A stretch of DNA of 64,000 nucleotides from Microvelia longipes (Eukaryota > Arthropoda > Insecta > Hemiptera > Veliidae), in contig JACMZG010001863.1 in the NCBI GenBank assembly GCA_018340805.1, positions 58,355,536 through 58,419,535 of the forward strand, read 5' to 3'. How positions within the stretch are numbered: the first letter of the stretch is position 1; each line of letters begins with the position of its first letter. A program made the position numbers and the translations under genes. The notes under the pieces were generated by a model that did no database searches, had not been told where the DNA came from, and saw only the letters and a program-made list of their open reading frames with translations. Shown piece after piece: positions 11,622 through 64,000 of this stretch.

Positions 11622-11929
11622 AATAAAAGTCATCAACTCCGTCTTTTCCACAAGATTTTTATTTATTAAGGCAGAACCGGCTTTCAGCTTACGCCATCAT
11701 CAGTGCCTAACATAGCAATACAAACATATTATAACAACATACATCCAATTAATAAAATAAATAAAATAAAAAAGTTAATCACAAACGTAAAAAAGTTAAA
11801 ACCTAAACCTAATGAAAATAATAAATATAAATCCAATTATAATAAAAATAAATACGTTTAAAACACAAAAAAGCATACCGGAAAGATATCGAGCCGTCAA
11901 CTGTCCAGGACCTCTGTTAAGAGTATGGA
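11622..11929 (-). repeat. PLE left terminal repeat (inverted)
   Basis: This is the near-perfect reverse complement of 13524-13831. The similarity starts at AATAAAAGTCATCAACTCCG and runs inward until AGAGTATGGA, where the coding region starts to be unique. Confidence 0.9.
11669..11708 (-). ncRNA. Predicted hammerhead ribozyme, left PLE repeat
   Basis: This is the reverse-complement copy of the motif described at 13743-13786. On the minus strand it has the order AGGCA, CUGAUGA, short stem II, GAAA, GCCGGU, UC, UGCCU. Confidence 0.6.
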
Positions 11930-13485
11930 AAGAAAATCCTAAAGAAGATCCGACTGAAAAACTTCAGAATAAAGTTCGCCAGACCATTAAAGCACTAACC
12001 ACTGCCCTCAACAGTACTCAGTTTAAACCTAGTCTTATCAGTATGAATCCTCAACCTCCCCGTATTTACGGGGTAGTCAAAATACATAAACCTAGCGCAC
12101 CTATGCGGGTTATTTTATCTAACCTTTCGTCACCTACAGATAAATTATCTAGAGCCACTGATAAGGAATTTAAAAAAGTTACTAATTTTAAGGCTTACGA
12201 TTCCATAAGGAATAGTTTTGAACTGGTTGATGGTTTAACTTCCATTATTTTACCCGACAACGCTATAATGGTATCGTTCGACGTGGTCAACTTATTTCCA
12301 AGTATTGATCCTAAAATATGTAAATTTCTTATGGGTAGGATACTCAAGAAAACTTGTACCGATAAAATACTTATCACTGAAATCACTGATCTACTTAACT
12401 TGTGCTTCGAACAGAATTATGCATTATTTAACGGAAAATTGTATAGCAGTTCGAATGGGTTAGCTATGGGTAACCCTTTAAGCGGGCTAGCTGCCGAAGT
12501 TTTTATGCACTATTTTGGTCAAAAATGTATCCACACACCTAACAACCCATTTTTGAAATACATTCTTCATTGGGTCCGTTACGTCGACGATACTTTCTGC
12601 ATTTGGACCGGTAGCCGTTCTCAATTAAACAGATTTCTCCAGTACCTGAACCAATGTTGTGAAAACATAACATTTACGATGGAGGTCGAATCAGAGGCAG
12701 GTTCGATCAATTACCTTGATCTCACCTTAACTAAGTCAGAAAATAAAATAACCTACTCGATCTACAGAAAACCAACTTCTACCGATACTGTTCTACACGC
12801 TACTTCACGGCATCCATGGTCACATAAACTGGCTGCCTTCAATAGTTATGTCCATAGGCTTTTAAACATTCCACTCAGTAATGATAGTTTTAATAAAGAA
12901 AAGGCGATCTTAAAGCATATCGCCGTGAAAAACGGATACGCCAGTAACATAATAGATGCCATAATAAACAAAAACTTAAAAAACGGACTCTGGCTCAAAT
13001 ATACCAGTCACCAGCTTCACCTGTGGAGTCGGATAGGACGCGCTACTCTATTCCATACATTGGTACTGTTTCAGTCCAAATCGCCAATACCTTCAGGTCT
13101 TTTGGAAGACTTAGTGCATTCCGTGCTACTAACTCCTTAAGACAACAACTTTCTCGGGTTAAAGATCCTATACCCCCAGAAAATAAGAGTGGTGTGTATG
13201 CTATCCGATGTGGAGCAGCAGGATGTGCTAAAGCGTATTGCGGGCAAACTGGTAGAGAATTCAAGTCCCGTTTAGGCGAACATATAAAGAAAACTTCGTC
13301 AAGTTTTTATCAGCATATTACAGATAAATCATAAAGATGAACCCCACGAAGTTTTTTTCTACATTTTGCCCCTAAAGGAGGAAAGTTGAACTCGCTGGAA
13401 AATCTTGAAATACGTAGACTCCAATATAAGAACCTGAAAATTCGCTTAACAAGAAAAATGAAGGCGAGGACTCAGCTATCTTGTA
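11880..13485 (+). pseudogene. PLE reverse transcriptase / GIY-YIG endonuclease, broken
   Basis: The frame that ends at 13140 carries the PLE-type RT series in order: VVKIHKPSAPMRVI, SFDVVNLFPSID, GLAMGNPLSG, the catalytic YVDD in HWVRYVDDTFCIW, INYLDL and IYRKPTSTD, then HPWSHKLAAF. Near 13020-13030 the reading shifts to another frame, which carries the linker IPYIG ... VKDPIPPENKSG and then the GIY-YIG nuclease (GVYAIRCG, YCGQTGREFKSRL). A stop at 13332-13334 interrupts it. The C-terminal motif GGKLNSLENLEI continues in a third frame to about 13485. The N-terminal part of the protein is missing. The gene reverse-transcribed and integrated the element; this copy is inactive. Confidence 0.9.
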
Positions 13486-45085: not shown

Positions 45086-45174
45086 TAAAGAAATGTATTT
45101 TTTTTAATAGACTTCTTCTTTGTATGTTTTAGAATGAGCATAAATGGAGTCCATCGTAAAGCCTATCCACAAAT

Positions 45175-45813
45175 AATAGTTATTTATGCAACAAGGGATG
45201 AAAGTAAGTTTTACAGCTCAAGTTAAAGTTTCGTCCTAAGGCAGTGCCGAAGGAGGAAACTTCATTAGCTCACGAGGCCGGTATGCCGAGGGAGATAAAC
45301 TAGTTAGCTCCCGAGGCTTGCCGAGGGAGTTAACTAACATTTTGGCTCCAGAGGCTTGACGAGGGAGATAATACGAGAGCTGAAAACTTTCATCCTTGTT
45401 GCATATTAAAATTTTATCTACGACTAGAGAACTAATACTAACAACTATTAATATATTCTTCAGCTCCTTAATTGTTATTGTCTTAGTTTAGTTTATTCTT
45501 ACCATGTCAATTACTCTGATGAAGAGAGAATAAAGCCACTATCTTCACATTATTTTATTGTAAGCTGTCAATAGAATAATGTGTAATACTATATTTGTAA
45601 TTTAAACATTAGCGTGTGTATATTGTATATTCTACCCGTAGTACCAACATAACACCGAAAAAATCCTAAAAATTTCCTAAAATTCCTAAAATTTTAATTA
45701 AAAATTCTGTCAAGTTGGCAACACTTCCAATTTTCCTCCCTAGGGAATAAAAGTACATTTACAGTGTGAGATAACAAGACTGTAAGTAGAATTTACAATA
45801 CAAGGAGTAGATA
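45175..45813. repeat. Composite repeat R2, copy 1
   Basis: It is about 640 bp. The first 240 bp form a foldback: TTATTTATGCAACAAGGGAT pairs with the complement at about 45390-45410, and in between are several CCCGAGGCTTGCCGAGGGAG dyads. The remaining 390 bp begin TTTTATCTACGACT and end AAGGAGTAGATA, which gives short TATCTAC/GTAGATA termini. The whole recurs at 61107-61744 and 63099-63716. It is non-coding; the element type is unknown. Confidence 0.85.
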
Positions 45814-46426
45814 TATATATTTATTCACAATAAACCTGAACACTTTCTTCTTTATTGTAAATAAATATCTTGAACTATGTAGAGATTTTCTATTCTTTCG
45901 TTCTATGACTTCTTCTTCTTTCACTTCATGAAGATTTAAAATAACCGTGTTAACGTTGAAAATATAAAGAGATATCAAGCGCTTTAGATTCAGAACTTAG
46001 CAATGTAGACATAGGATTTATTGCTTAAGCTATTCAAGGTATAAAACTTAAATAGCTTAACCAACAGAAAAACCTTGCATGAAAGTCATAGATTAAACAC
46101 TATGATCTTTATTGAACGTTCGTTTTTCTGGTATCCTTTCTGATATGACAAACTCTAATTCCCACGTTTGTTTTTTTAAACTACATGCTTTTTACAAAAT
46201 GTAATTAGTGAGTAGAATTATTAGAGAATTTACATTATATGAGTGATAACTGATAAGCAAATAAGCGGGATAAAGCTTATCGTTTATTATTCTTAATTTC
46301 CCTGAGTTTCATGAACACCATCTAATTGAGTATTTTTATTTTTAATTTTATTAATAATTTTTAATTTTTAATAATTTTGTTTGTGTATTTTTTTTATTAT
46401 TTCATTATGTATTTTTATTGTTTCAG
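45814..46426. other. Region upstream of the IGFBP-like exon
   Basis: An AT-rich stretch ending in a good splice acceptor (TTTTTATTGTTTCAG, AG at 46425-46426). The 5' untranslated exon expected upstream could not be located. Confidence 0.4.
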
Positions 46427-46723
46427 TGCTATGATGTGAGGGTACAATGTCTTTACTCTGTGTCTGGGTCCTGCTACTAGGACCCGCATTGGTCCGTTCG
46501 TTCTCATGCGTGTGTACTCCATCAGAGTGTGAACTGACATCGGATTCGGACTGTCCACCAGGCGTCGGAACTGTTTGGGATCCGTGCGGGTGTTGTCGAG
46601 TTTGTGCCAGGACTGAAAACCAGCCTTGCGGTGGTCCTTATGGATTTTATGGTTCGTGCGGCAAAGGATTACTCTGTGTCGTCACAGATGTCTCGTCAGA
46701 CGGAACTGAAGGCACATGTAAAC
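46427..46723 (+). CDS. Secreted single-domain IGFBP-like protein (first coding exon)
   Basis: The exon is bounded by acceptor TTTCAG at 46421-46426 and donor C|GTAAGT at 46723/46724. The ATG at 46447 starts a signal peptide (MSLLCVWVLLLGPALVRS) followed by about 74 residues with 12 cysteines, including PCGCCRVC and QPCGGPYG. This matches the IGFBP N-terminal domain (GCGCCxxC motif) at full cysteine count. Such stand-alone domains in arthropods (SIBD type) are secreted and linked to immunity or insulin-like signalling; the partner is unknown here. The exon ends in phase 1, just after the last cysteine. A minimal upstream ORF (ATG ATG TGA, about 46431-46439) precedes the start. The next exon is uncertain; one weak candidate, at 47664-47680, would add only QTLL. 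Confidence 0.85.
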
Positions 46724-47346
46724 GTAAGTAAAACATTATTTAGGTAACAATTGAGTTTCGAGTCCAATAAGACTGCTTATCAAGTAATTGACGCATGAGA
46801 CATATGACAAAGGAATAGTGCATGAGTCATATGACAAAGGAATATTGCATAAATCAGATGACAAAGGAATAGCCAGAGTAAAATTAGTTGGACGTAAACC
46901 ATTACGTCCTACTAATCCAACTAAATTTCAACTAATTTTCACAAGGTCATAATACAACCTTGTAACTAACTATTATATCATAGGAATAGCCTGTCCGATT
47001 AGCATTCCTTTGTCATTAGACTTATGTAAAGACTCAGTTTCAAATCCCAGAACATTGTTTAAAATTAATCGACCGACGCTTGTGTAAGTTGACAAAGGAA
47101 TGCCTGTTCGATTAACATTTCTTTGTCATTAGACTGATCCAACATTTTCTCTTTCTTTCTACTTATTCATCTATCTCCTTAGTTGTTAACGTAATGTTGT
47201 TGAACAAACATGTTCTTTATTGGCAAAAGTATACAATTTACATATACTTAAATGTTGAATACTACTTTGAAAGATAATTAAATATATGGTATTTTTGCAA
47301 TGTAGTAATATGCTATTGGGACAATGCTAATGTACAAAAATTTGTA
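46724..47346. other. Intron of the IGFBP-like gene, small repeats
   Basis: A segment with ATATGACAAAGGAATA... is repeated about three times at 46798-46875, and ATTAGCATTCCTTTGTCATT and its near-complement recur near 47000-47130. No exon was found. Confidence 0.5.
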
Positions 47347-50107: not shown

Positions 50108-52638
50108 TTAATAAAGAGAAGAGCCAACAGGACACGTTTTTATGGCCAAACAATTGTTTTCTTTAGCGGCATGAGTTTGACTAATTGTAGGAACGGAAGA
50201 AGAGTCTTTACAGTTAGTTTTTTCCTCTGGTTGGCTAACTCTTATAGTTAAATTTTCAGCATTCTTTGCAGTTGGGGACGCATACGTACTTTCTTTAAGA
50301 TATGGAAACAGAAAGTCGAGAAATGACTCAATATCAAGATAAGTTAAGTCCCTGTTGTTGTGCTTTTGATCTATCTTCAATCGCTTTAATATAGGTTGGT
50401 TTTGAGAATATTGTTAAGTTGACGTAGTAAGTTGATATGATTCGTTGAATGAACTAGTAGGTATCCCAGTTAGCACAAGATAATATGATGCATAAGGCAA
50501 TGTTTGATTTGGTTTACAGAGTAGGCTCGTGTGATATGCAGACAATATAGCTGGATTTGACTCGTTGGAAAGAAAATGATGAGATCGAGGGTATATCGCC
50601 GAGTGCTTCTGGTTATAAGTGTATATTGGTGTATGTGATTTAATAGGCAAACTCACTCCATGTTATTCTGTAGGGCTTTGGAGTATTAACTGGACAAGGC
50701 GTCGATTTGTTTCCAGAACTTTCCGTTTTCTCTTCACCTTGGATATTAGGTCTACATCCAACACCAGATGGAAATTCTACTTCACCTGGTGAAACTCCTC
50801 CAGGAGTTATCCCTCCCCTACTATCGGGGGTACTCTCTCCGCTACTTCCAGTCGGGCCGCTACCCCCTGGTACTTCTGGAGGTTTTGGAGTATTATTACT
50901 GCTAATATCATTAGCTGAAGGGAATCCTTTACCCTGGCTACCGCCAGACGCCGGGGAACAAATAGTAGCGGGTGACAAACCTTCACTACATGATGGCGGA
51001 CTGCTACCACCATGACCTGTCCCGACAGAACCTTTACCACCTGAACCTCCACCACACCCTGATGGACAACCACCAGGTGGTACACCCCCCTTTGATGGCG
51101 GACAGCTTCCAACAGAACCTTTACTACCTGAACCTCCACCACAACTTGATGGACAACCACCAGGTGGTACACCCCCGCTTGATGGAGGACAGCTTCCACT
51201 TTGGCCTGTCCCAACAGAACCTTTACCACCTGAACCTCCACCACACCCTGATGGACAACCACCAGGTGGTACACCCCCCTTTGATGGCGGACAGCTTCCA
51301 ACAGAACCTTTACACTGAATCTCCACACAACTTGATGGACAACCACCAGGTGGTACACCCCCGCTTGATGGAGGACAGCTTCCACTTTGACCTGTCTCAA
51401 CAGAACCTTTACCACCTGAACCTCCACCACACCCTGATGGACAACCACCAGGTGGTACACCCCCCTTTGATGGCGGACAGCTTCCAACAGATCCTTTACT
51501 ACCTCCACCAGAAGAAGGTTTGGGTTTACACGTCGTTCTCTTATTATTAAATTTAGCATCTGGGGCTCTGCCATACACGTGTTTCTTCATTTCACTTATT
51601 TTGGAGAATGTATTTTTTCTTGATTTAGAAGGATTGTCAGCAACGACATTTGTCTGATTTACAAAAAGAGGTTGTTTCTGAAGAATATTTAAAGGATGGC
51701 GGTTATAGTCAACTGTTGACAATGGTAATAGGCTGCTCTTACTTTCTTTCTCACTATGTGCTATGTACTTGTTATCAGGTATGATATTATCGATCAAGGC
51801 TTGACACCACACAATATTTTTACTCTGTAATGGCTCGATTTCCGCAAAGTCGGATCGATTTGGATAATTTCTCTTGCTTCTAGCGGTGAAAGGTTGATTG
51901 TAAGATAGATCCTTCATATTCCTCTTCTTCTCGTACGCAACTATTAAAATAAACTAATAAATATTTGAAAATTCATAAAAAATACCCTAAATGTCACTAG
52001 AGGTAAAGGAGAAGAAAAAACACGTATATGGCAGTAGAGCTCCTCATGATCGTATTCCACTCCGCAAAAAATTTAGAATAACAATACAAAGCATTCTCAA
52101 TTCAAATTTTGGATTTTAAAAAGCGAACAAAACTTATCAGCTAGCTTAGGCTATAAAATCTAATTAAAACATTTGTATCAGCAATTTTAATCCTAATGTA
52201 AACAAGTTTTTTAAATTCTATAGTACGACAAACGGCTAAAATCAGTTGACAGCGTGGAAAAATAATGCGAGGGAGCCAATGAGGTTACCCTGGATCTTAG
52301 ACCACACCATCAATTTCAATTCAGGCCAACCTTATTGGTTCCTCAATTCTATTTTGTCACGCTGTCAACTGATTTTAGCCTTGTGTCGTACTATAGGTTA
52401 TAAATAATAATGTAAAACAAAGAACCTTAAGGAAATATTTAAAACTTATTGTTTCCTTGGACTTCTGTTCAGTAGGGTCATGTTAAATTGGAGTATTATG
52501 CAAAATTACCAGGTCTAAACCGGAACACTTAAATCTAATAAATTAAATTATAAATTAAACCGTACACGAAACATTTATTATAAGTATTAAAAATACAGTG
52601 AAGTACGTTAGACGTATCAGCGCGTATCTAAAGTACAT
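50108..52638 (-). CDS. Secreted Gly/Pro/Cys-repeat protein (gene 1), three-exon model
   Basis: Exon 1 (52638-52566) encodes a 24-residue hydrophobic leader (MYFRYALIRL...LIINVS) and ends T|GTACGG in phase 1. Exon 2 (51940-50657, after TTTTAATAG) completes the cleavage-type sequence VSFA and continues with dibasic EKKR, KKHVYGRAP (51587-51561) and six repeats of 29-36 residues built from GSVGSCPPSKGGVPPGGCPSGC. It ends at A|GTGAGT, again phase 1. Exon 3 (50370-50108, after GATAG) gives the tail down to CPVGSSLY and the stop. All three joins keep frame. The product is predicted secreted, disulphide-rich and structural. The exon 1 donor and exon 3 acceptor are weak. I recognise no named family. 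Confidence 0.62.
50990..51515 (-). repeat. Coding array CPPSxGGVPPGGCPSxCGGGSGxK
   Basis: Within exon 2 of gene 1, 29-residue units alternate with longer 33-36-residue units that carry an extra TGQSG-type insert. One unit has VEIQCK in place of the GGGSG linker. The nucleotide units are nearly identical, which points to recent unequal exchange or conversion. Confidence 0.85.
51991..52119 (+). pseudogene. Inverted KKHVYGSRAP fragment in intron 1 of gene 1
   Basis: A 42-codon ATG frame on the plus strand encodes EKKKHVYGSRAPHDRIPLRK. The coding words for KKHVYGRAP match the gene 2 version at 58134-58108 almost base for base, apart from an inserted AGT. It sits about 50 bases from the exon 2 boundary of gene 1, in head-to-head orientation. 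I read it as an inverted remnant of a third family member, or as a small antisense peptide. Expression is unknown. Confidence 0.55.
52223..52391. mobile_element. Short MITE in intron 1 of gene 1, TA flanks
   Basis: The 169-bp element has TIRs of about 34 bp (GTACGACAAACGGCTAAAAT ... AGTTGACAGCGTG and complement), flanked by TA (52221-52222 and 52392-52393). The GTACG start resembles the MITE at 19153-19650. Confidence 0.85.
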
Positions 52639-52886
52639 TTCTAATAAAAATATTTTATTTATCTATACGTGATTACTGAAATGATTACACCATACTTGGA
52701 ATAAAATTGGTATATTTCTATAAATTTTGTTTTTGCAGAGTTTTACAAGCTTTCTCTTTCTAAAAATTTGTGGCTATATCCGTAGTTATTAGATGACTGA
52801 GTGCATATGTTTGACAGAGCATTTATTATGGTTTGCCCGGTATGTTCTATTAATCTTAAGTCTTACAAAATAAGTATTCGATTCAG

Positions 52887-52892
52887 TTTATT
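52887..52892 (-). promoter_or_regulatory. Candidate polyA signal for gene 2
   Basis: AATAAA on the minus strand lies about 90 bases past the stop at 52979, at a typical distance. It also separates the 3' end of gene 2 from the leader exon of gene 1, about 250 bp further on. Confidence 0.45.
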
Positions 52893-52978
52893 CTCGTTTC
52901 TAATCAATGTCAGTGTCGGAATGAAATATTAAAAATTGATTGGCTCTTATCTAGCCAAGAAATAGCGATAAAATGTAT

Positions 52979-55900
52979 TTATAAAGTGACGGTATTTTTG
53001 TTTACGAACTTGCTTGCGTTTACTACCTGTCTCTCGTGTGAATTATAAATCGGTAATTTCGACGATAAATGGCTTTTCTTTTTTCTCAATACGCATTCAG
53101 CAATATATTTTAACTTTCCTCTAAGATTTTCTGGATTATTACTATCTTCAACATCGAAAAGATGAATCAGAGAGTTGGGGTTGTTAATAACTTCTACAGG
53201 AACTAGATCGTAGTCTAATGGTTCTTTGATGAACGGGCCTTGAGGTATTTTGGTACCGCAAGATGTAGCACATGAACAACAGGGTCTTAGTCGACACTGC
53301 GTAGCCCTCAATCCAGCGCTGCACGTCGTACAAAATTCATCTTGTAACGAAGGGCAGCAGCACGGTGACTTGGGTCCTTCCGCTTTCGGACAACAACCAC
53401 TTTCCCTCTTTCTGGCCTTTTGAGGTGCAATACGATTATATTCTACGAACTTTAATCTATTACAAGGATCGCAAGTAGTAACCAAGGCGGGTAATACACA
53501 TTTAGTGTTGTGCTTACAGGGAATAGGAGTGTTCTTAGTTGCACAGGTATGACACTGTGCTTCCCTTTTATCAATAAATTCTACCGTCAAATCGTTTTCT
53601 AAATCATCCATTTCAGGTGATAATCTCGAGTCTTCGATAGCGGTGAGTACCTTGGCTTCTTCTTCATTAATTTGTTTGTTAAATGACGGTGTCGATTTTT
53701 GCAAACTGATTTGGCACGGAACGGGGTCTGTGTCACATGGTGGCAATGCAGAGGAAGTACGAGAGCAGCAGGTCGGTAAGTGTCCACAAACGTCTTTCTT
53801 TTCAAGTTCATGTTTAGTTAGTTTGTTATCTTCGATTTCTGGTTGATACACGCCACAACCGCAAGACTTTTGACATGGGCAAGTTGGCTTGCAAGCATTA
53901 GTGCAAGGTGTGGAGCATTGAGTCGTACAGGCAGTGGAACATTTTGACTTGATTCTACATGGTGTCGTACATACAGTGGTACAAGGCGTTGTGCATGCAG
54001 TGGTACATTCTGTTGGGCATGGAGTAGTACAAGGCGTCGTGCATGGTGTAGTGCATGGTGTGGTACAAGCTGTTGTGCATGCAGTAGTACAACTGGTAGT
54101 GCAACCTCTTTCTCCCCCCATGTCACAGCCACATTTAGGAATGGCAGGATCTCCAATGCCTACAAGGGATGATTTCAAGTTTTGATTGCCATAATGCCAT
54201 TTAGTCCCGTTTTTTAGATTTTTTATTTTCTTTGGGAAAACGAATCTTTTTATTTTTTGGTTGTTTCTCGAAATTTCTTTAGGCTTACACTTTGGCGAGC
54301 ATATAGGACAAGGAGGTGGATTGCACGGGTCACAGGGTTTAGAAATTTTGGGGCAACTACTACTGAAGTTTACACAGGGGAATGGCGACTGGTTCTTGCA
54401 ACCACATCTTTTAACTCTAGCGACAGGCTGCGACGGTTCTGATATGTTTCGTTTGACATTTGACTTGATATTTTTACTAGATTTATCGTCTATTTTAACC
54501 GATACAACCTTGCTACCACATTTAGGTGGACAACAAGGCGATTGAGGGGGTTGACAGCACGGAGGTGGAGGTGGAGGACAGCACGGAGGTGGAGGTGGAG
54601 GGCAACACGGAGGTGGAGGTGGAGGACAGCACGGAGGTGGAGGTGGAGGACAGCACGGGGCACAGCATGGGGGAAGTGGACAACATGGTGGAGGGCAAGG
54701 GGGGCAACACGGAGCACAGCATAGAGGAAGAGGTGGCGGGGCTTTAGCCCCACAGTTTTGTGGGCAACACTTCGTCGTGGGCGCACAGCTAGGAGTTGAC
54801 TGACCGCATCTTTTATATCTATTTTCAAAATTGGTTCCACTTCTAGGTGAAGTTTTATTGGTTGACTCATATTTACAGGAAGGCGGACTAGCGCGAGTAT
54901 AGCATGATTGACAAGGAGGTGGTGGTAAAGTGGGTGCTGTAGCCCCACATCTTTTGTATCTGTCATCAGAATCTAGTTCTTCAGCGCATCCAATATTAGG
55001 CCCATAGTGATTATGTTTACGTAGTTTCAAATGATTACATCTTTCTGTACATGGTGTTGTACAAGCAGTGGAACACGTACGTTTAGGTGTACATGCAGTA
55101 GAGCAAGGTGTAGTACAAGCTGTCGAGCATGTTGTAAAACATGATTTTTTAATAGTACAAGGTGTGGTACAAGCGGACTTAGTACTACATGGCGTTGTAC
55201 AAGCTGTTGTGCATGCTGCTATCGGACAGCACCTTTTCCTAATCAAAATGTGCGGATCAGACGAATTTAGGAACAAATTGCTACGATGTCTCCAACACGG
55301 TACGGAACAAGGCGTGCGACAAGCAGTAGTGCAAGGAGTGGTACATGCTGTTGTGCACGGAGGTGGTACATGGCAGTGCAAGGAGTGGTACATGCAGTTG
55401 TGCAAGGCGGTGGTGCAAGGAGTGGTACATGCAGTAGTACATGGCGTAGTGCATGCCTTAGTGCAGCCTACTGTCGCACAACACCGTTTCTTAATATTCA
55501 GAATTTTGGTGTCAGACAAATTAGGAGCAAATTGCTACGAATGTCTCCAACACGGGCACGGAACAAGGCGTGCGACAAGCAGTAGTGCAAGGAGTGGTAC
55601 ATGCAGTTGTGCACGGAGTGGTACATGCAGTAGGTGTAGTGCAAGGAGTGGTACATGCAGTAGTGCAAGGAGTGGTACATGCAGTTGTGCACGGAGTGGT
55701 ACATGCAGTAGTGCAAGGAGTGGTACATGCAGTGGTAGGCGTAGTGCATGCCTTAGTGCAGCCTACTGTCGCACAACACCGTTTCTTAATATTCAGAATT
55801 TTGGTGTCAGACGAATTTAGGAGCAAATTGCTACGATGTCTCCAACACGGCACGGAACAAGGTGCTACAAGCAGTAGTGCAAGGAGTGGTACATCAGTTG

Positions 55901-58900
55901 TGCACGGAGTGGTGGTAGTGCGCATGTACAGTGCAAGTACATGCAGTGCAAGGAGTGGTACATGCAGTAGTGCAAGGAGGTGGTACTGCAGTAGTGCAGT
56001 GGTAGTGCAGGAGTGCAAGGAGTGGTGCAAGGTACATGCAGTAGTGCAAGGAGTGGTACAGGCTGTAGTGCATGGCGTCGTGCATACCTTTTTGCAGCCT
56101 GTTGTCGCACAGCATCTTTTCCTAATGATAATTTGTGGATCAGACGATTTTAAGAACAAATTGCTACCATGATTCCCACATGGTACGGAACAGAGCGTGG
56201 TAACAAGCAGTAGTGCAAGGAGTGCAGGTGCATGCATAGTGCAAGGGTGGGACTGCAGTAAGTGCAAGGAGTGGTACAATGCCATAAGTGCAAAGGAGTG
56301 GTAACAGTGCAAGGAGTGTAGTAGTGCAAGGAGTAGTACAGGCAGTAGTGCAAGGAGTAGTACAGGCAGTAGTGCAAGGAGTAGTACAGGCTGTAGTACA
56401 TGGCGTCGTACATGCCTTTGTGCAACCTGTTGTTGGACAACACCGTTTCTTAATTTTCAAAATGTGCGTATCAGACGAATTTAGGAATATATTGCAACAT
56501 GATTTTACACACGGTACGGAACAGGGTGTGGTACATGCAGTACTACAAGGCGTGGTACAGGAGGGCATACAAGCAGTAGTACATGCTGTAGTACATGCTG
56601 TCGTACATGCTGTAGTACATGCTGTCGTACACGGAAGTTTTCCTGGACAACAAGGGAAGGGTATGGTAGGGCAGCAAGACTTTTTATCTATTTTATGTAA
56701 ACATTTTTGTTGTGTTCTTAACTTTACATTAGAAGGCAAATCTTTAATAAAGAACCAGGGTTTATGTGAATCGTTACAAGCGATTGTACTTTTTGATTTA
56801 GTAGGGAGCGGAGTAATGCTTGCTGAATTAGCTTTGGTCGTGCAAGGACTGGAGCACGTTCCTTTGGTCGTACTAGGAGTTAGGCAAGTTGCTTTGGGCG
56901 AAAGAGCTGTGGGTTTGTTAGAGCATGCGTTGTTAGAAGTTGTTTTAGTTGTGCTAAGCGTGGTGCTAGACATTGAGCTGGACGTGATGCACGCAGTAGA
57001 GCAAGTTTGCTTTTTATAATTAGGGGTAGAGTATGTTGGATTGTTTTCAGACGGGATACAACATCTTTTAGCTATAGTGAGTTTGTCAAGAAATGTTTGT
57101 TTTGGATAGAAGGTAGGATCAATTCTATTTGGTGAAATTACATTTTTATATAAAGACAAAGACTGGTCGCAACTCCTAGTTTTGACTGACTTATTTGTAA
57201 TATATTTTAAAAGATAATCTGGTTTTGGTATACGAGACGGTCGCTCGCTGGATGTAAAAAAATTAGAGAGATTAAACGAGTTGAAGGCTTTGTCGTTTTG
57301 GTTAAAACTTATGCTATCACTCATCAAAAGCCTAATTCCATCTATTTTTTCTTTCAGTTGTTTCCAACCTTTGTCTATAGAAGGGGAGCATGTAATATGA
57401 GGACCGTCTTTAGCATTAGCAGGTTGAGTACTTTGTCCAGAAGATGCTTGTCCTCCAACACATGTAGTTTTAGTAATAGGACCAATTGTTGCCCCTGGTG
57501 ATCCCGGTGAACTTCCTTGTGAGCTTGGACCAGGCCCCCCTGGCGATTTTCCAGGTGTTCCACCGGCAGGAGCACACCCAGTAGGCACTGTTGTAGTAAT
57601 AATGGGACAATTTGTTGGGACTGCTCCGGGTTTATTCCCTGCACCACCAGGTTTCGTACCTTTCGTACCAGTGTCACCAGGTTTTGTTGTAGTATCACCA
57701 GGTTTCGTACCAGCATCACCAGGTTTCGTACCAGTGTCACCAGGTTTTGTACCAGCACCACCAGGTTTCGTACCATCATCACAAGGTTTCGTACCAGTAT
57801 CTCCAGGTTTAGAACCAGTATCGCCAGGTTTGGTACCAGTGTCACCAGGTTTTGTACCAGCACCACCAGGTTTCGTACCATCATCACAAGGTTTCGTACC
57901 AGTGTCACCAGGTTTTGCACTAGTATCGCCAGGTTTGGTACCAGCACCACCAGGTTTCGTACCATCATCACAAGGTTTTGTACCAGTATCTCCAGGTTTA
58001 GAACCAGTATCGCCAGGTTTCGGAACAATCTCGCCTGTTTTAGCGCCTCCTGGTGGAGGGTTGGGAAGTGTTTGACATGGAGGAAACCCTGGGTTTCCAC
58101 CTCCTTGAGGAGCTCTGCCATATACGTGCTTTTTATTTCTTTCTCGTGAAATATTATTAAGGTCTGACACAATTTGAGGTAAAATGTTCCCTGAGGTATG
58201 GGACGGACAAAACCCTTGCATAGGAGAAAGCATTAAGGGGGAGAGGTTATCTATCGGTGTCAAAGTTTCATCGGATATGAGGTCCCCTGTTTCCTGACAA
58301 GATGAATTGTCCTCAGTCGTATGAAAATTTAAATCACGCTCCATTTCTGGGAAACTTAAGTACAGCTCTCTTTTGTGCTTAGCACCTAAAGTCGTCCATC
58401 CCTCATCAACTACTTCCTCATCTAAAATAATATAGAATTGGGTTTGTTAATAACTAACTCATGTAAAATATCTCAATTTATTCAACAAATGCGATATTCT
58501 TTGCTTTATAGAATCTTTGTAGGGGGAGGGGTTATAGACAACTGAGAAAGGTTGGTATTGGTCTATTACCAATAAGACTCAGGGACCTGCAAACTTTTCC
58601 TCAAACCTGATTCGCTACGCTTCATCGCTACATTGGACTCGTTTCGCTCGTCGTCAAAGAGTAGTAAAGAGTAGTGAAAGTAATGAGGGAGAGGTGATTG
58701 ATTAACTAACAAGTAGGGCGCGTTGTTGGACCCTTTTTGCTGGATCCCTTAGATAGAAGATAGCATTATATCTTATGAGTCGTGGTGCAGGCATTTTACG
58801 TCTAATCCACAGAAGAGCCGTGGTTTAAATCTTATTTTCTATAGCTTCAACTAGAAAACAACACGTGCCCCACTGCCAGACCAGGCTTTCCAGCTTTTGA

Positions 58901-61900
58901 AACCAGAAGGCAGAAACATAATATATTTAATATAAACTATTATTGAGGGTCCTAAATTTTGCCTAAACCTAGATTAATTCTAGGCCAGGGATCTTATACG
59001 AGTACCTGACATCGCAGAGGCTCGGAACCATTGGCTTAACGTCCCTCTCGAAGGACGGCACGTGAAAGGATTTCCATCCTCGCATGAAAATCCTAGAGGT
59101 GCCCACTGTATGGGTGGCAGGCGAACCATTACACTCCCCCCCCCCCCCCCAAAGAGTAGAGATAAATAGTTTTATTACAAGCCAGCACCCATCCACGTAA
59201 TGACTTCGCTAGATGCTGCTTTACACTTGCGACCCCATTCTTATTATCATATATCATTATACGTATAGATACGTACATCCTAAATTCAAATCATATTTAA
59301 TGAATACATTAGTATTAAATTTATAACAGTTTTAATCTAAAAAATCGGGTTCGGGGTACCTCGAAACTATTCCTTATCACATAGGATTCACTTCACTCAT
59401 CGTCCCTATTTCGGACTCGCTTCGCGTGTCCTCAGAATATACAATTCGCCGAATTTATACTACAATAGGTCTTTGGATTCGCTTCGCTCGTCCTCGGATA
59501 GTAAATACATCCGTTTTATTCTCAGTGGTTACCGATACAGCTATGACCACGCTCAATGCTGCTTAACTTTTATTTTCTAACAAAAACCATTGATAGACTT
59601 GTCGTATTAAAACTATAAAGGTATACTCCTATACTAAATTTCAGCTCGATTGGATTGTTTTCATTTTTTTTAAAACGTACAAAAATAATACAAGATTATT
59701 TTATACAAAATTGAGCTAATGCAGATGATAAGATGAAAGTTTGCACATATATGTTAGTCTTATACATATATTAGTCTAGTTAGTCTTAGTTTGTTAGTCT
59801 TATTTATGCGAGCTAAATCTCAATCCAATCAACTCATTGCTCCACGTTTTACGACTTATCGAAATTTTTGCTGTGTCATTATTTCGGGTTTATGACGTCA
59901 TAAAAAAAAATTCTGAATATTCTTGACTGATTTTTGTACGAATTTTAAGGTCTCTAGCATAGAGAAACTAGGAGCTACGATGATAACAGACACACACGCA
60001 CACATAGACAGAAAACTTTGTGAAAACAATCAGGAGCTCTTAAAACAGCTAAAACGGATAATTGCAGTGACATCACGTTTTGAGATTTTGTAAATCACAA
60101 TATTTTTTCCATATGCCTACGGCATGAATGAGGAAAAGTGCACATGTCATTCCATAAATTGAATATATTTTTATAATGAAATAAACATGAATAAATAAGT
60201 TTTTTTGAGGTAGTACGTAATTAAGCACTTTATTGGACCGTTTTTAGGATGAGAAGCCAATCATTATTGTTATAGGAGGTTATTAGTACTTTTCACCTCC
60301 GAGGACAATAATAAATGTAAAACTCCTAGGACGTAAAGTAATTCATATGTTGCCGCCATTACTGGTAATGTAGCGTGTAAAAAACAATCTGTGTTAACCT
60401 TCGTGAGCTTTATTTAAAAACGTTCATTTTGTTTCTGTTTTTGTTCGTAGACTAATTTTTTTTTCGTTTTTAAAAGGTGTTCTAATTGACAATTTTTGTG
60501 TGTTTATTTGTAAAGCTTTTACATTTTTGAGTAGAAGTGTGAAGCTATGGATGAATTTAATGACGGCGATAATATGGAGTTAATAATAATAGGACGTTTT
60601 TTTTTCAATTAAGTATATAGCGCAGTTTAATAAGTGCTTTTTTTGATTTTTTTTAATGAGTGCTTTATTTAATGAGTGCTACCTCAAAAAGAAATAGTGT
60701 ATGCCATCCGGCTGAGAATGTCTTTATGTCTTGGCAATTTTTCCCGACTCGCTTCGCTCGTCGGTAAATCTAATTGCCGTGACATAAAGACACACTTCTC
60801 AGCCTTATGGCATAAATAACTATTTTTTTGTATTTTACTCGGGTGCATGCGAGCCAAATTATGAATCAGTTCTATAATTTTCCCTACTTTTTTTTCAAAA
60901 TACATTTTGGTGATGTCACACAAAATATTTTCGGATAACACAACTAGCCATAAAGATTGATTTTAGTATCAAGTTTCATTTCTGTAACATCGACACACTG
61001 AGAGGTACGTTACGACACACACATACAACTACAGACAAGCAACATTTAAAAACCGCTAACGTTGTCTTTGAAACATCAATATTTAGGTCCAGTTTTTCTT
61101 TCCGAAATAGTTATTTATGCAACAAGGGATGAAAGTAAGTTTTACAGCTCAGTTAAAGTTTCGTCCTAAGGCAGCGCCGAAGGCGAAAACTTCATTGGCT
61201 CACGAGGCCGGTAGGCCGAGGGAGATAAACTAGTTAGCTCCCGAGGCTTGCCGAGGGAGTTAACTAACATTTTGGCTCCCGAGGCTTGACAAGGGAGATA
61301 ATACGAGAGCTGAAAACTTTCATCCCTTGTTGCATATTAAATATTATCTACGACTAGAGAACTGATACTAACAACTATTAATATATTCTTCAGCTCCTTA
61401 ATTGTTATTGTGTTGGTTTAGTTTATTCTTACCATGTCAATTACTCTGATGAAGAGAGAATAAAGCCACTATCTTCACATTATTTTATTGTAAGCTGTCA
61501 ATAGAATAATGTGTAATACTATATTTGTAATTTAAACATTAGCGTGTGTATATTGTATATTCTACCCGTAGTACCAACATAACACCGAAAAATCCTAAAA
61601 ATTTCCTTAAAATTCTTAAAAATTATACTAAAAAATTCTGTCAAGTTGGCAACACTTTCACTTTACCTCCCTAGGAAGTAAAAGTACATTTACAGTGTGA
61701 GATAACAAGACTGTAAGTAGAACTTACAATACAAGGAGTAGATAAAGTTAGTTTATTCATTAATCCCGATCTGTTTATATTAAACATAAACAATCAGGGG
61801 TTAGATAACCGGCCTGAAACAGTAGCGTTAAGTGACCCCGGTGAATAAAAACTGAATCCAGGGACACACACGGGTCACTCTATGTTTGTGGCCCTGATGC

Positions 61901-62501
61901 TATTCAAATCTTAGTAAGTCAAAATTCCTTTACTCAATAGGTTTACTAAGATCCTCTTAAAGTCAAAGTCATTTTTTAAACATAGTCATTCTTTAAATCT
62001 TATTTAAACGCAATCAGTAGCCCATATATATAAAGTTAGTTATGAGTTCTGATAGTTATTACAGCAATCAGTTTGTTACTCAGCTTGTAAAATGTTGTCC
62101 AATTATGATATAGTTATTCATTACACCTAACATAATACAAGCATTATCTCTGTACATGATTGCCCTCTCGCGGGCAAACCGTGTCCCCCAAACCAATCAA
62201 GCGGTCACAGCGTGACACCACTATATAGTAAAATAATCATTTTCTTTACTAGTTGATGATGACGTCATAAATAAGTTCTTTGCCAATTTTGCCACACTTG
62301 ACTGCGGCTTTGACAAAACTACTTTGAGACCCTCTCGTTTCGTAGGCCTGCTTATCTCGATATGGTTCATGGAAACCTCAGAAGTACAAAAGGTAGGGGT
62401 CCCTTCTTTTATACTACCTTCTCAAACTCTAGGAATACTGATTCCCACACTTAATAGAGGTCATTAACATAGACGTTTACGTGTAAACAATAATTTATGT
62501 G

Positions 62502-62579
<78 letters not shown>

Positions 62580-64000
62580 ACATTTTGGCATATCGTTTTG
62601 ATATCAAAAAGCCAAACAAAAAACAACCTCATAAGCGTAATTTTTATAAAAAGAAATCACTAAAACATGGAAATAATAATATAAGCATGTATTTAAAAGG
62701 AGAACATTGTATCAGCCGGAGGCAGTGTGCTCTCCTTAGTTACAAATCTATTTTTTTTTCTCTGCATTTTTTTTTTTAAAAAAATAGAATTTTAGGAGAA
62801 TAAAAATATTATTATTAAAATTTGAATCCTTATCCACACACACACAATCCATGAATTTTAGTGGATCATAAAAGTTAAGCAGCATTGAGCGCGGTCAATA
62901 CTATATGGGTGACCGCTGAGAATGAATGGGATGTATTTGCTATCTGAGGACGAGCGAAGCGGGTCCGATGACGGATTGCAGTATAAATTCAACTAACAGT
63001 GTATTCTGAGGTCGAGCGTAGCGAAACAATGTAATGAGGAAACGTTCCGAGGTACCCTGTTCTCGATATATTAAATATTTTAAATATTAATTGGATTTAA
63101 TAGTTATTTATGCAACAAGGGATGAAAGTAAGTTTTACAGCTCAAGTTAAAGTTTCGTCCTAAAGCAGCGCCGAAGGAGAAAACTTTATTAGCTCACGAG
63201 GCCGGTATGCCGAGGGAGATCAACTAGTTAGCTCCCGAGGCTTGCCGAGGGAGTTAACTAACATTTTGGCTCCCGAGGCTTGACGAGGGAGATAATACGA
63301 GAGCTGAAAACTTTCATCCCTTGTTGCATATTAAATTTTATCTACGACTAGAGAACTAATACTAACAACTAATAATATATTCTTCAGCTCCTTAATTGTT
63401 ATTGTGTTAGTTTAGTTTATTCTTACCATGTCAATTACTCTGATGAAGAGAGAATAAAGCCACTATCTTCACATTATTTTATTGTAAGCTGTCAATAGAA
63501 TAATGTTAATACTATATTTGTAATTTAAACATTAGCGTGTGTATATTGTATATTCTACCCGTAGTACCAACATAACACCGAAAAATCCTAAAAATTATAC
63601 TAAAAAATTCTGTCAAGTTGGCAACACTTTCACTTTTCCTCCCTAGGGAGTAAAAGTACATTTACAGTGTGAGATAACAAGACTGTATGTAGAACTTACA
63701 ATACAAGGAGTAGATAAAAAAAATAATTGATGCACAACAAAATATTGATTATTTTGCACAACAAAATAATTGATGCAAAATCGGTTAACCAGCTGATTAA
63801 AATACATAACAGAAATATAACTATGTTAATTATAATAATTTTACCTTGAATTTTACTGGGATCAGATTTTTCCCATTCCTTATCTGACATGTGCGGTATG
63901 GCCGGATTGCATGAGAGACAAACTTTAGGATGTTCCTTGCCCGGGCAGTGAGAGGAGTCACACCCGGTTCTTTTTTCTCGAAATAACTTACATCCGTTTC
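52979..64000 (-). CDS. Giant Cys-rich repeat protein (gene 2), partial, frameshifted
   Basis: The edge exon (64000-63845, open at the window end) encodes GCKLFREKRTGCDSSHC, KVCLSCNPAIPHM and ends SDPSKIQ G|GTAAAA in phase 1. The next exon starts after TATTATTTTAG at 58421 with AT GAG, so the join gives Asp and DEEVVDEGW... It runs to the stop at 52979, about 1800 codons. In order it carries: KKHVYGRAP (58134-58108), a KPG heptad array, a Ser/Thr-rich block with AKRCC, five KRCC modules of CTTACTTPC octads, blocks starting YKRCG, a Cys-Pro array, VKRCGC and KRFVF blocks, a second CTTxC run and a mixed Cys-rich tail. The frame changes at least twice within the module array (about 56300-55520). 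The protein is probably secreted; the leader is off the window. Family unknown. Confidence 0.6.
53865..54115 (-). repeat. Second CTTxC array of gene 2
   Basis: About 25 tetrads of the form CTTA, CTTP, CSTP or CTTV encode a cysteine every fourth residue. They are in frame with both flanks, unlike the main array. Confidence 0.85.
54530..54725 (-). repeat. Coding CCPPPPPP array
   Basis: Units of 24 bp encoding PPPPPPCC alternate with CCAPCCPPCPPP-type spacers. It resembles Cys-Pro-rich extracellular structural proteins; the function is inferred only from composition. Confidence 0.85.
54980..56640 (-). repeat. Tandem KRCC / CTTACTTPC module array
   Basis: Five modules start with a conserved block NLFLNSSDxxIL(I)(K/R)KRCC, whose KRCC codons lie near 56440, 56110, 55775, 55480 and 55225. 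Each continues into a run of CTTACTTPC octads and ends TPCSVPCW. Module spacing is about 250-335 bp. The octads change reading frame at several places, including one short compensated shift (LHNCMYHSLHCHVPP at about 55405-55365) and net shifts between 56300 and 55520. Confidence 0.85.
57640..58025 (-). repeat. Coding heptad array TGTKPGD
   Basis: About 18 heptads of the form [TAD]G[TS]KP[GC][DG] occur. A three-heptad higher-order unit (TGTKPCD, DGTKPGG, AGTKPGD) recurs. It is in frame with the N-terminal part of gene 2. Confidence 0.85.
58690..59150 (-). mobile_element. tRNA-derived SINE, copy 2 (truncated head)
   Basis: It shares the body of 28290-28800 (AAGGCAGAAAC, AATTTAGGACCCTCA, CTCTAGGATTTTCAT). 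The A-box end is lost into a run of about 15 C at 59137-59151. A fragment of the 5S-SINE body lies just before it (58590-58665), and a 5S-like head fragment follows at 59170-59235. Confidence 0.78.
59342..59580 (-). mobile_element. 5S-rRNA-derived SINE, copy 3
   Basis: On the minus strand: GTTAAGCAGCATTGAGCGTGG, a decayed GGTAACCACTGAGAAT, GAGGACGAGCGAAGCGAATC (present twice), ending GAGGTACCCCGAACCCGAT. Confidence 0.8.
60201..60690. mobile_element. TIR element GAGGTAG..., possible deleted transposon
   Basis: The ends TTTTTTGAGGTAGTACGTAA and TGAGTGCTACCTCAAAAA are inverted copies, with AAGCACTTTAT words repeated inside both termini. An ATG at 60547 opens MDEFNDGDNMELII, the look of an acidic transposase start, but the frame ends in the TIR. 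It may be an internally deleted DNA transposon. Confidence 0.55.
60700..60814. repeat. 115-bp hairpin with CGACTCGCTTCGCTCGTCGG centre
   Basis: ATGCCATCCGGCTGAGAATG pairs with the right end (CTTCTCAGCCTTATGGCAT), then GTCTTTATGTC with GACATAAAGAC. Its right end, GGCATAAATAACTATTT, resembles the end of repeat R2, so it may be a small relative. Confidence 0.8.
61107..61744. repeat. Composite repeat R2, copy 2
   Basis: It is nearly identical to 45175-45813 across both the foldback half and the TATCTAC...GTAGATA half. No clear target duplication was seen. Confidence 0.88.
62500..62577. repeat. (TA)n microsatellite
   Basis: Uninterrupted TA dinucleotides. Confidence 0.95.
62862..63066 (+). mobile_element. 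5S-rRNA-derived SINE, copy 4 (best preserved)
   Basis: The head AAGTTAAGCAGCATTGAGCG, CGGTCAATACTATATGGGTG and ACCGCTGAGAATG aligns by eye with the 3' half of arthropod 5S rRNA, which holds the internal polymerase III promoter. The body GAGGACGAGCGAAGCGGGTC and the tail CCGAGGTACCCTGTTCTCGA follow. Confidence 0.85.
63099..63716. repeat. Composite repeat R2, copy 3
   Basis: This third near-identical copy of R2 lies 1.4 kb from copy 2 in the same orientation. A small deletion is visible near 63595 relative to the other copies. Confidence 0.88.

Follow-up and report, generated by a model that had tools for sequence, protein, structure and literature searches.

This locus raises the question of whether two neighbouring genes that encode very different low-complexity proteins belong together and, if so, what they have in common. 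Both genes, here called A and B, lie on the minus strand of the window, by which we mean the whole stretch of 64,000 nucleotides that was analysed. The original prediction described two large minus-strand exons with low-complexity bodies, a common nonapeptide KKHVYGRAP and phase-1 acceptors, and all of these are present. It went further in viewing them as members of a tandem family of disulphide-rich proteins with a fixed N-terminal architecture and exchangeable repeat bodies. Our own reading, to which we assign a rough probability of 0.45, is that A and B are adjacent orphan genes for secreted, dibasically processed structural proteins that cross-link by disulphides. The features on which the discussion draws are collected in Table 1.

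Table 1. Position, strand and basis of the features of genes A and B in the window.
Feature	Position	Strand	Remarks
Candidate upstream coding exon of A	63845..64000	-	open frame to window edge; Cys-rich; contains REKR
Gene A large exon	52979..58421	-	phase-1 acceptor; stop 52979-52981; 5.4 kb
KKHVYGRAP, gene A	58108..58134	-	alignment and pattern search of assembly
KPG(D/G)(T/A)G(T/S) 21-base tandem repeat, gene A	57661..58022	-	17.2 copies
CTTACTTPC array, gene A	55371..56319	-	apparent frame breaks: 11 (penalty 9), 7 (penalty 12)
Pro-Cys 24-base tandem repeat (CCPPPPPP), gene A	54553..54658	-	4.4 copies
Gene B exon 1, predicted signal peptide MYFRYALIRLTYFTVFLILIINVS(FA)	52566..52638	-	phase-1 donor, 5/9 consensus
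Gene B predicted intron, phase 1	51941..52565	-	splice-site scan and joined translation
Degenerate third motif copy	51991..52116	+	antisense in predicted intron of B; 42-codon frame with KKKHVYGSRAPH
Gene B large exon	50640..51940	-	with exon 1: uninterrupted 457-aa protein, 22 Cys
KKHVYGRAP, gene B	51561..51587	-	residue 143 of 457-aa model
Gly-Pro-Cys tandem repeat, gene B	50991..51504	-	186-base period
Candidate third exon of B	50108..50292	-	end of 101-codon open frame 50413-50108

The exact nonapeptide starts 96 residues into exon A and 118 residues into exon B, and five of its nine codons differ between the two genes, all of them silently. A search of the readable part of the 664,620,837-base (665-Mb) assembly with the coding pattern AARAARCAYGTNTAYGGNMGNGCNCC returned two exact matches, namely A and B, where about 0.002 would be expected by chance (our own estimate, assuming equal base frequencies); the reversed pattern, run on the same assembly as a control, returned none. 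As both exact matches lie here and the control is empty, the motif is real, common to A and B, and confined to this locus in the readable assembly. With two mismatches to AARAARCAYGTNTAYGGNMGNGCNCC, a single assembly match was found (C505), which was rejected as a further member since it lies inside a frame of only 12 codons. Neither the nonapeptide nor six other words taken from these proteins were found in the literature searched.

The similarity of the two proteins ends with this segment. When their N-terminal parts were aligned locally, the score was 53 with the motif included, a value reached by none of 5,000 shuffles (shuffle maximum 52), and 23 with the motif removed, which was reached by 1,550 of 2,000 shuffles. 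When the B region was compared with the A region by blastn, the motif was recovered at 84% over 32 bases (E 0.008) along with two further matches, each at E 0.36; tblastn again picked out the motif (E 0.035) and, at E 0.89, a single Cys-Pro match. Judged by these alignments, the similarity of A and B is the nonapeptide alone. The postulated fixed N-terminal architecture is thus not supported beyond the nine residues and one dibasic site early in each large exon: once the motif is taken out, the alignment is no better than that of shuffled sequence. A phase-1 intron leading into each large exon had been put forward as another common trait. The best-looking acceptors are both phase 1, but this argues little for a shared architecture, since phase 1 is common among introns that directly follow a signal peptide.

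Nor could the tandem family be extended beyond two genes. In the 313,537 bases scanned (the window and 249,537 further bases, 5,000 of these N) there is no fourth motif copy, and a local tandem array was rejected on this ground; the assembly contains no further exact copy of the motif, and B is single in its own genome. When up to three substitutions were allowed in the same 313,537 bases, the sole extra row was KKHVYGNIL (L024), which we took as a chance occurrence.

The large exon of gene A contains a spacer with KHKR, KKHVYGRAP, KPG/Thr/Gly repeats, CTTACTTPC arrays, Pro-Cys arrays and a Cys-rich tail. Its first base, 58421, follows the acceptor ATATTATTTTAG and opens the exon with ATGAGG, while exon B begins at 51940 with TTGCG behind TTATTTTAATAG. 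Other AGs near the open-frame starts of A and B would give other phases, and the two phase-1 acceptors are the best-looking choice, not a proven one. Further upstream, the candidate exon at the window edge, single-copy in the assembly, ends in a phase-1 donor (CAAG followed by GTAAAA, 7/9 consensus). We infer that it is joined to exon A, the intron then measuring 5.4 kb. The 5' end of A falls into the run of exactly 5,000 N that directly follows the window end (L009 537-5536), and secretion of A is plausible. The presumed intron houses two copies (61106-61759 and 63098-63716) of a dispersed repeat some 640 bases long; a third is at 45174-45827, and the three are 94-95% alike.

The reading frame of exon A appears to be broken. 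A frame trace returned 18, 11 and 7 breaks at penalties of 6, 9 and 12, respectively. At penalties 9 and 12 every break falls within 56319-55371 (0.95 kb), and at penalty 6 six more lie outside; the uninterrupted stretch 55234-52982, used as a control, gave four breaks at penalty 6 and none at 9. The clustering of the breaks in the most repetitive kilobase suggests that they are consensus errors. If they are real, they may represent decay, and A may then be a pseudogene.

For gene B, 1,037 bases were scanned from the stop of A to exon B, and apart from the first exon they contain no ATG exon whose phase-1 donor reaches 5/9 consensus. As a control, we examined 252 overlapping window segments of the same size on both strands; a signal-peptide-like phase-1 first exon occurred in 11 of them, and two of these 11 are this very exon. 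Among 302 phase-1 candidates in the whole window (307 minus five dropped as simple repeats), two combine a hydrophobicity of at least 3.4 with at least two basic residues up front, namely exon 1 of B and a frame running past the donor of the edge exon. Hydrophobicity, position and phase are the sole grounds on which the signal peptide of B is predicted. Signal cleavage follows the -3/-1 rule, and at the predicted site in B, between VSFA and YEKK, these two positions are occupied by S and A. Two AATAAA sites lie 87 and 152 bases past the stop of A, ahead of exon 1 of B. Given this signal-peptide exon of its own in the gap and the AATAAA sites before it, B is best read as a separate, predicted secreted gene. 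Gene B may have a third exon, about 60 codons long. It would be reached from a phase-1 GTGAGT donor at 50656, just ahead of the stop of B, through an AG in matching phase before 50292 with a pyrimidine tract of 72%; the other phase-1 AGs of the 101-codon frame have poorer tracts.

The expected richness in disulphides suits A best, where Cys makes up 7.0% of the first open frame and 14.1% of the last; B has 22 Cys in 457 residues. A Cys spacing of three dominates A, accounting for 42 of 119 spacings in the last open frame and 22 of 53 in the first. Units 12 bases apart were compared by codon position: in the Cys array 54112-53900, 19 of 67 first, 17 of 67 second and 52 of 67 third positions are mismatched. 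Because these mismatches are mostly third-position, the protein pattern has been kept here while silent sites have drifted. Likewise compared 12 bases apart, the stretch 56631-56510 has 8/37, 5/37 and 18/36 mismatches at the three positions, and 56420-56321 has 7/29, 1/30 and 15/29. The third-position bias is weaker in the Pro-Cys array (lag 24; 16, 16 and 26 of 59) and in the KPG array (lag 21; 31/126, 20/127 and 35/127), and there is little of it in the unbroken stretch 55232-55050 (lag 12; 31, 21 and 36 of 57). The repeats of B are too alike for this codon-position test.

Dibasic sites in A tend to precede Cys. Its two open frames contain 13 KR pairs, seven of them followed by Cys and six not; shuffles gave a mean of 0.46 KR-Cys and a maximum of five in 20,000, although the blocks concerned are partly mutual duplicates, so that the sites are not independent and the underlying events are fewer than the count. 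Three of the seven fit [RK]-x-[KR]-R-C (RYKR, RYKR, RVKR), and two more KR-Cys lie within the frame-broken stretch. As seven of the 13 Lys-Arg sites precede Cys, the sequence suggests that A may be a processed precursor, or polyprotein, cut into Cys blocks. Gene B has three KR pairs.

The statement that no described family shows this combination agrees with the searches of the protein database, Pfam and the PDB, none of which produced a relevant hit, the animal coverage of these collections being uncertain. Pfam contains no family for B and gave for A a weak MUCL1 match (E 0.024) below the curated cut-off. In the protein database, B has no match at E 0.001 among the 7,996 candidates that share most words with it, a set possibly crowded by its low-complexity repeats. 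Residues 10-125 of A and the tail of A have none at E 1, with 86 and 588 candidates scored, respectively. A sequence search of the PDB returned two low-complexity matches only (E 0.33 and 0.52), and none for the edge exon. In the genome, the repeat half of A matches 13 places, one of which is A itself; three loci (L002, L003 and L007) that cover five of the 12 others show low-complexity repeats, including Pro-Gly and Tyr-Ser-Ala-Pro types. We set these matches aside, and a relative of the Cys-rich tail (52982-54151) may yet exist elsewhere in the genome. Locus L003 (C558:32180551-32181438) encodes a long RPGEYPSRPGDISG / PGRPGEYPSPG repeat protein that gives the impression of being elastomer- or cuticle-like. 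Three stretches of viral contigs match a pattern, and none of them encodes a relative.

We tentatively combine these observations in the reading of A and B as secreted proteins of a disulphide-hardened material. The signal peptide, predicted for B, would route the product to the secretory pathway, where subtilisin-like proprotein convertases would cut at the dibasic sites early in the large exons (KHKR in A, RSKR in B) and probably also at KK, before HVYGRAP. In A, cuts may additionally fall between cysteine blocks (IKKR/CC, IRKR/CC, RYKR/CG, RVKR/CG, the slash marking the cut), and A would then be a possible polyprotein giving rise to several Cys-x3-Cys and Pro-Cys peptides. By analogy, the Cys blocks, separated by Thr-Thr-Ala/Pro or polyproline, would cross-link via disulphides to an insoluble gel or wall like that of hardened secretions, perhaps in a gland or a reproductive covering. 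As the sole constant segment, KKHVYGRAP might open the mature repeat chain or serve as an address common to both partners. A more specific version, in which the peptides of the A polyprotein assemble with the B chain and KK/HVYGRAP is the common start that brings unrelated chains into one disulphide-cured material, we regard as speculative and unlikely in its details. The general reading draws on the signal-peptide exon of B, which stands in the right gap and phase, on the KR-Cys excess and the Cys spacing of three in A, on the mostly third-position mismatches of the array 54112-53900, and on the purely silent differences within the motif. Several points speak against it: the interdependence of the KR-Cys sites, only three of seven of which fit the longer consensus, the six of 13 KR pairs without Cys, the apparent frame breaks in A, KK being a weaker convertase site than KR, the mere three KR pairs of B, the small third-position bias of 55232-55050, and the excessive likeness of the repeats of B for such a test.

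A different origin of the motif comes into view with its third, antisense copy. By blastn, this copy matches the DNA of A over 52012-52046 (85.7% across 35 bases, E 5.7e-5), and it is single in the assembly. A 14-base core is present at three places in the window, the expectation being 0.03. The antisense copy would most simply be a degenerate one in inverted orientation, in which the insertions relative to A preserve the frame, perhaps by luck. The same predicted intron carries, at 52220-52400, an inverted repeat seen by eye, CTAAAATCAGTTGACAGCGTG and its complement, perhaps a small DNA transposon.

The shared nonapeptide could accordingly be a trace of small local DNA duplications, in which a short piece of exon A gave rise to two copies close by, one inverted within the intron of B and one in its exon, A and B being otherwise unrelated repeat-protein genes. 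In favour of this, the antisense copy matches A better (60 gapped columns, score 47; the highest of 500 Markov controls reached 36) than B matches either A (local score 37; none of 500 controls as high, maximum 34) or the antisense copy (33; three of 500 as high), and A and B share nothing else detectable. However, differences that are always silent in five codons would be rare for a neutral copy of that age, and the copies in A and B are both in frame and both ahead of the repeat body, so we consider this explanation rather unlikely. Quite improbable, in our view, is a single gene with alternative last exons, in which common 5' exons would be spliced to either large exon. Phase-1 acceptors on both large exons, the phase-1 end of the edge exon and the weak donor of B are compatible with such an arrangement, yet the gap is occupied by a signal-peptide exon of B that has a phase-1 donor of its own, and the AATAAA sites behind A precede that exon.

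Two further alternatives concern function rather than origin. A fast-evolving secreted effector of salivary, venom or seminal type, acting on host or mate, would suit a repeat-rich orphan (in the searches made) with predicted secretion of B; no functional domain was detected by Pfam, the composition suits cross-linking better than binding, and the assembly reveals no expansion, which together make this improbable. Non-secreted Cys-Pro proteins of sperm structure, among them mammalian SMCP and the products of the fly Mst(3)CGP genes, resemble the Pro-Cys arrays in composition. Together with the keratin-associated proteins they share Cys-Pro or Cys-Gly-Pro low complexity with the pair, but they are intracellular and not known to undergo dibasic processing. 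In view of the predicted signal peptide of B and the regular dibasic sites before Cys in A, a sperm-structure role of this kind is very unlikely.

Returning to the reading of a disulphide-hardened secretion, related principles are known from other systems. Cnidoin is described as having a signal peptide, a large propeptide up to Lys-Arg, a repeat body and cysteine-rich domains and as contributing to a disulphide-linked wall (PMC4321713); these features of cnidoin and the minicollagens of the nematocyst wall resemble what is predicted for the pair. Unlike the pair, minicollagens have a collagen Gly-x-y stretch, whereas the KPG repeats here are seven-residue units (translations read by eye), and the PDB sequence search gave no match to solved cnidoin or minicollagen structures. 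The minicollagen/nematocyst CRD pattern CxxxCxxxCxxxCxxxCC has one match in the first frame of A, amid Cys at every fourth place and thus easily by chance, and none in the middle or last frame of A or in the edge exon. The salivary sheath proteins offer a second parallel. The aphid structural sheath protein SHP is described as secreted, Cys-rich and hardening by disulphide bridges (PMC5156713), and compared by description SHP and other salivary sheath proteins are like A and B in Cys content and in the secretion and disulphide hardening proposed here. In the same source, SHP is described as one 154-kDa protein, which differs from a pair.

As far as the searches go, the pair is new in sequence, while the kind of protein is already known. 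If the preferred reading is right, this orphan pair joins those secreted proteins that are cut at dibasic sites and then hardened by disulphides, and it illustrates how little sequence such partners must keep. It is a modest find as it stands, perhaps limited to one lineage, and lends itself well to testing whether proteins that assemble together can be marked by a motif of nine residues.

The GC content of two-kilobase windows lies between 25.5 and 47.5%. Three features of the surroundings would suit an arthropod, probably an insect, although other animals might show them too. At 11800-13331 (+), reverse transcriptase and GIY-YIG pieces occur in neighbouring frames, as in Penelope-like elements. 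About 88 kb left of the window, a chitin synthase exon (L031 1605-2042) matches Pfam PF03142 at E 6.5e-5, below the cut-off, and chitin synthases of the PDB at E 0.005. Finally, a separate predicted secreted protein with a single IGFBP domain (Pfam PF00219, E 1.9e-11) is encoded at 46435-46731 (+); the start resembles a signal peptide, the phase-1 donor is strong (8/9), and its best PDB matches are IGFBP7 (E 3e-4) and SIBD-1 (E 0.0037).
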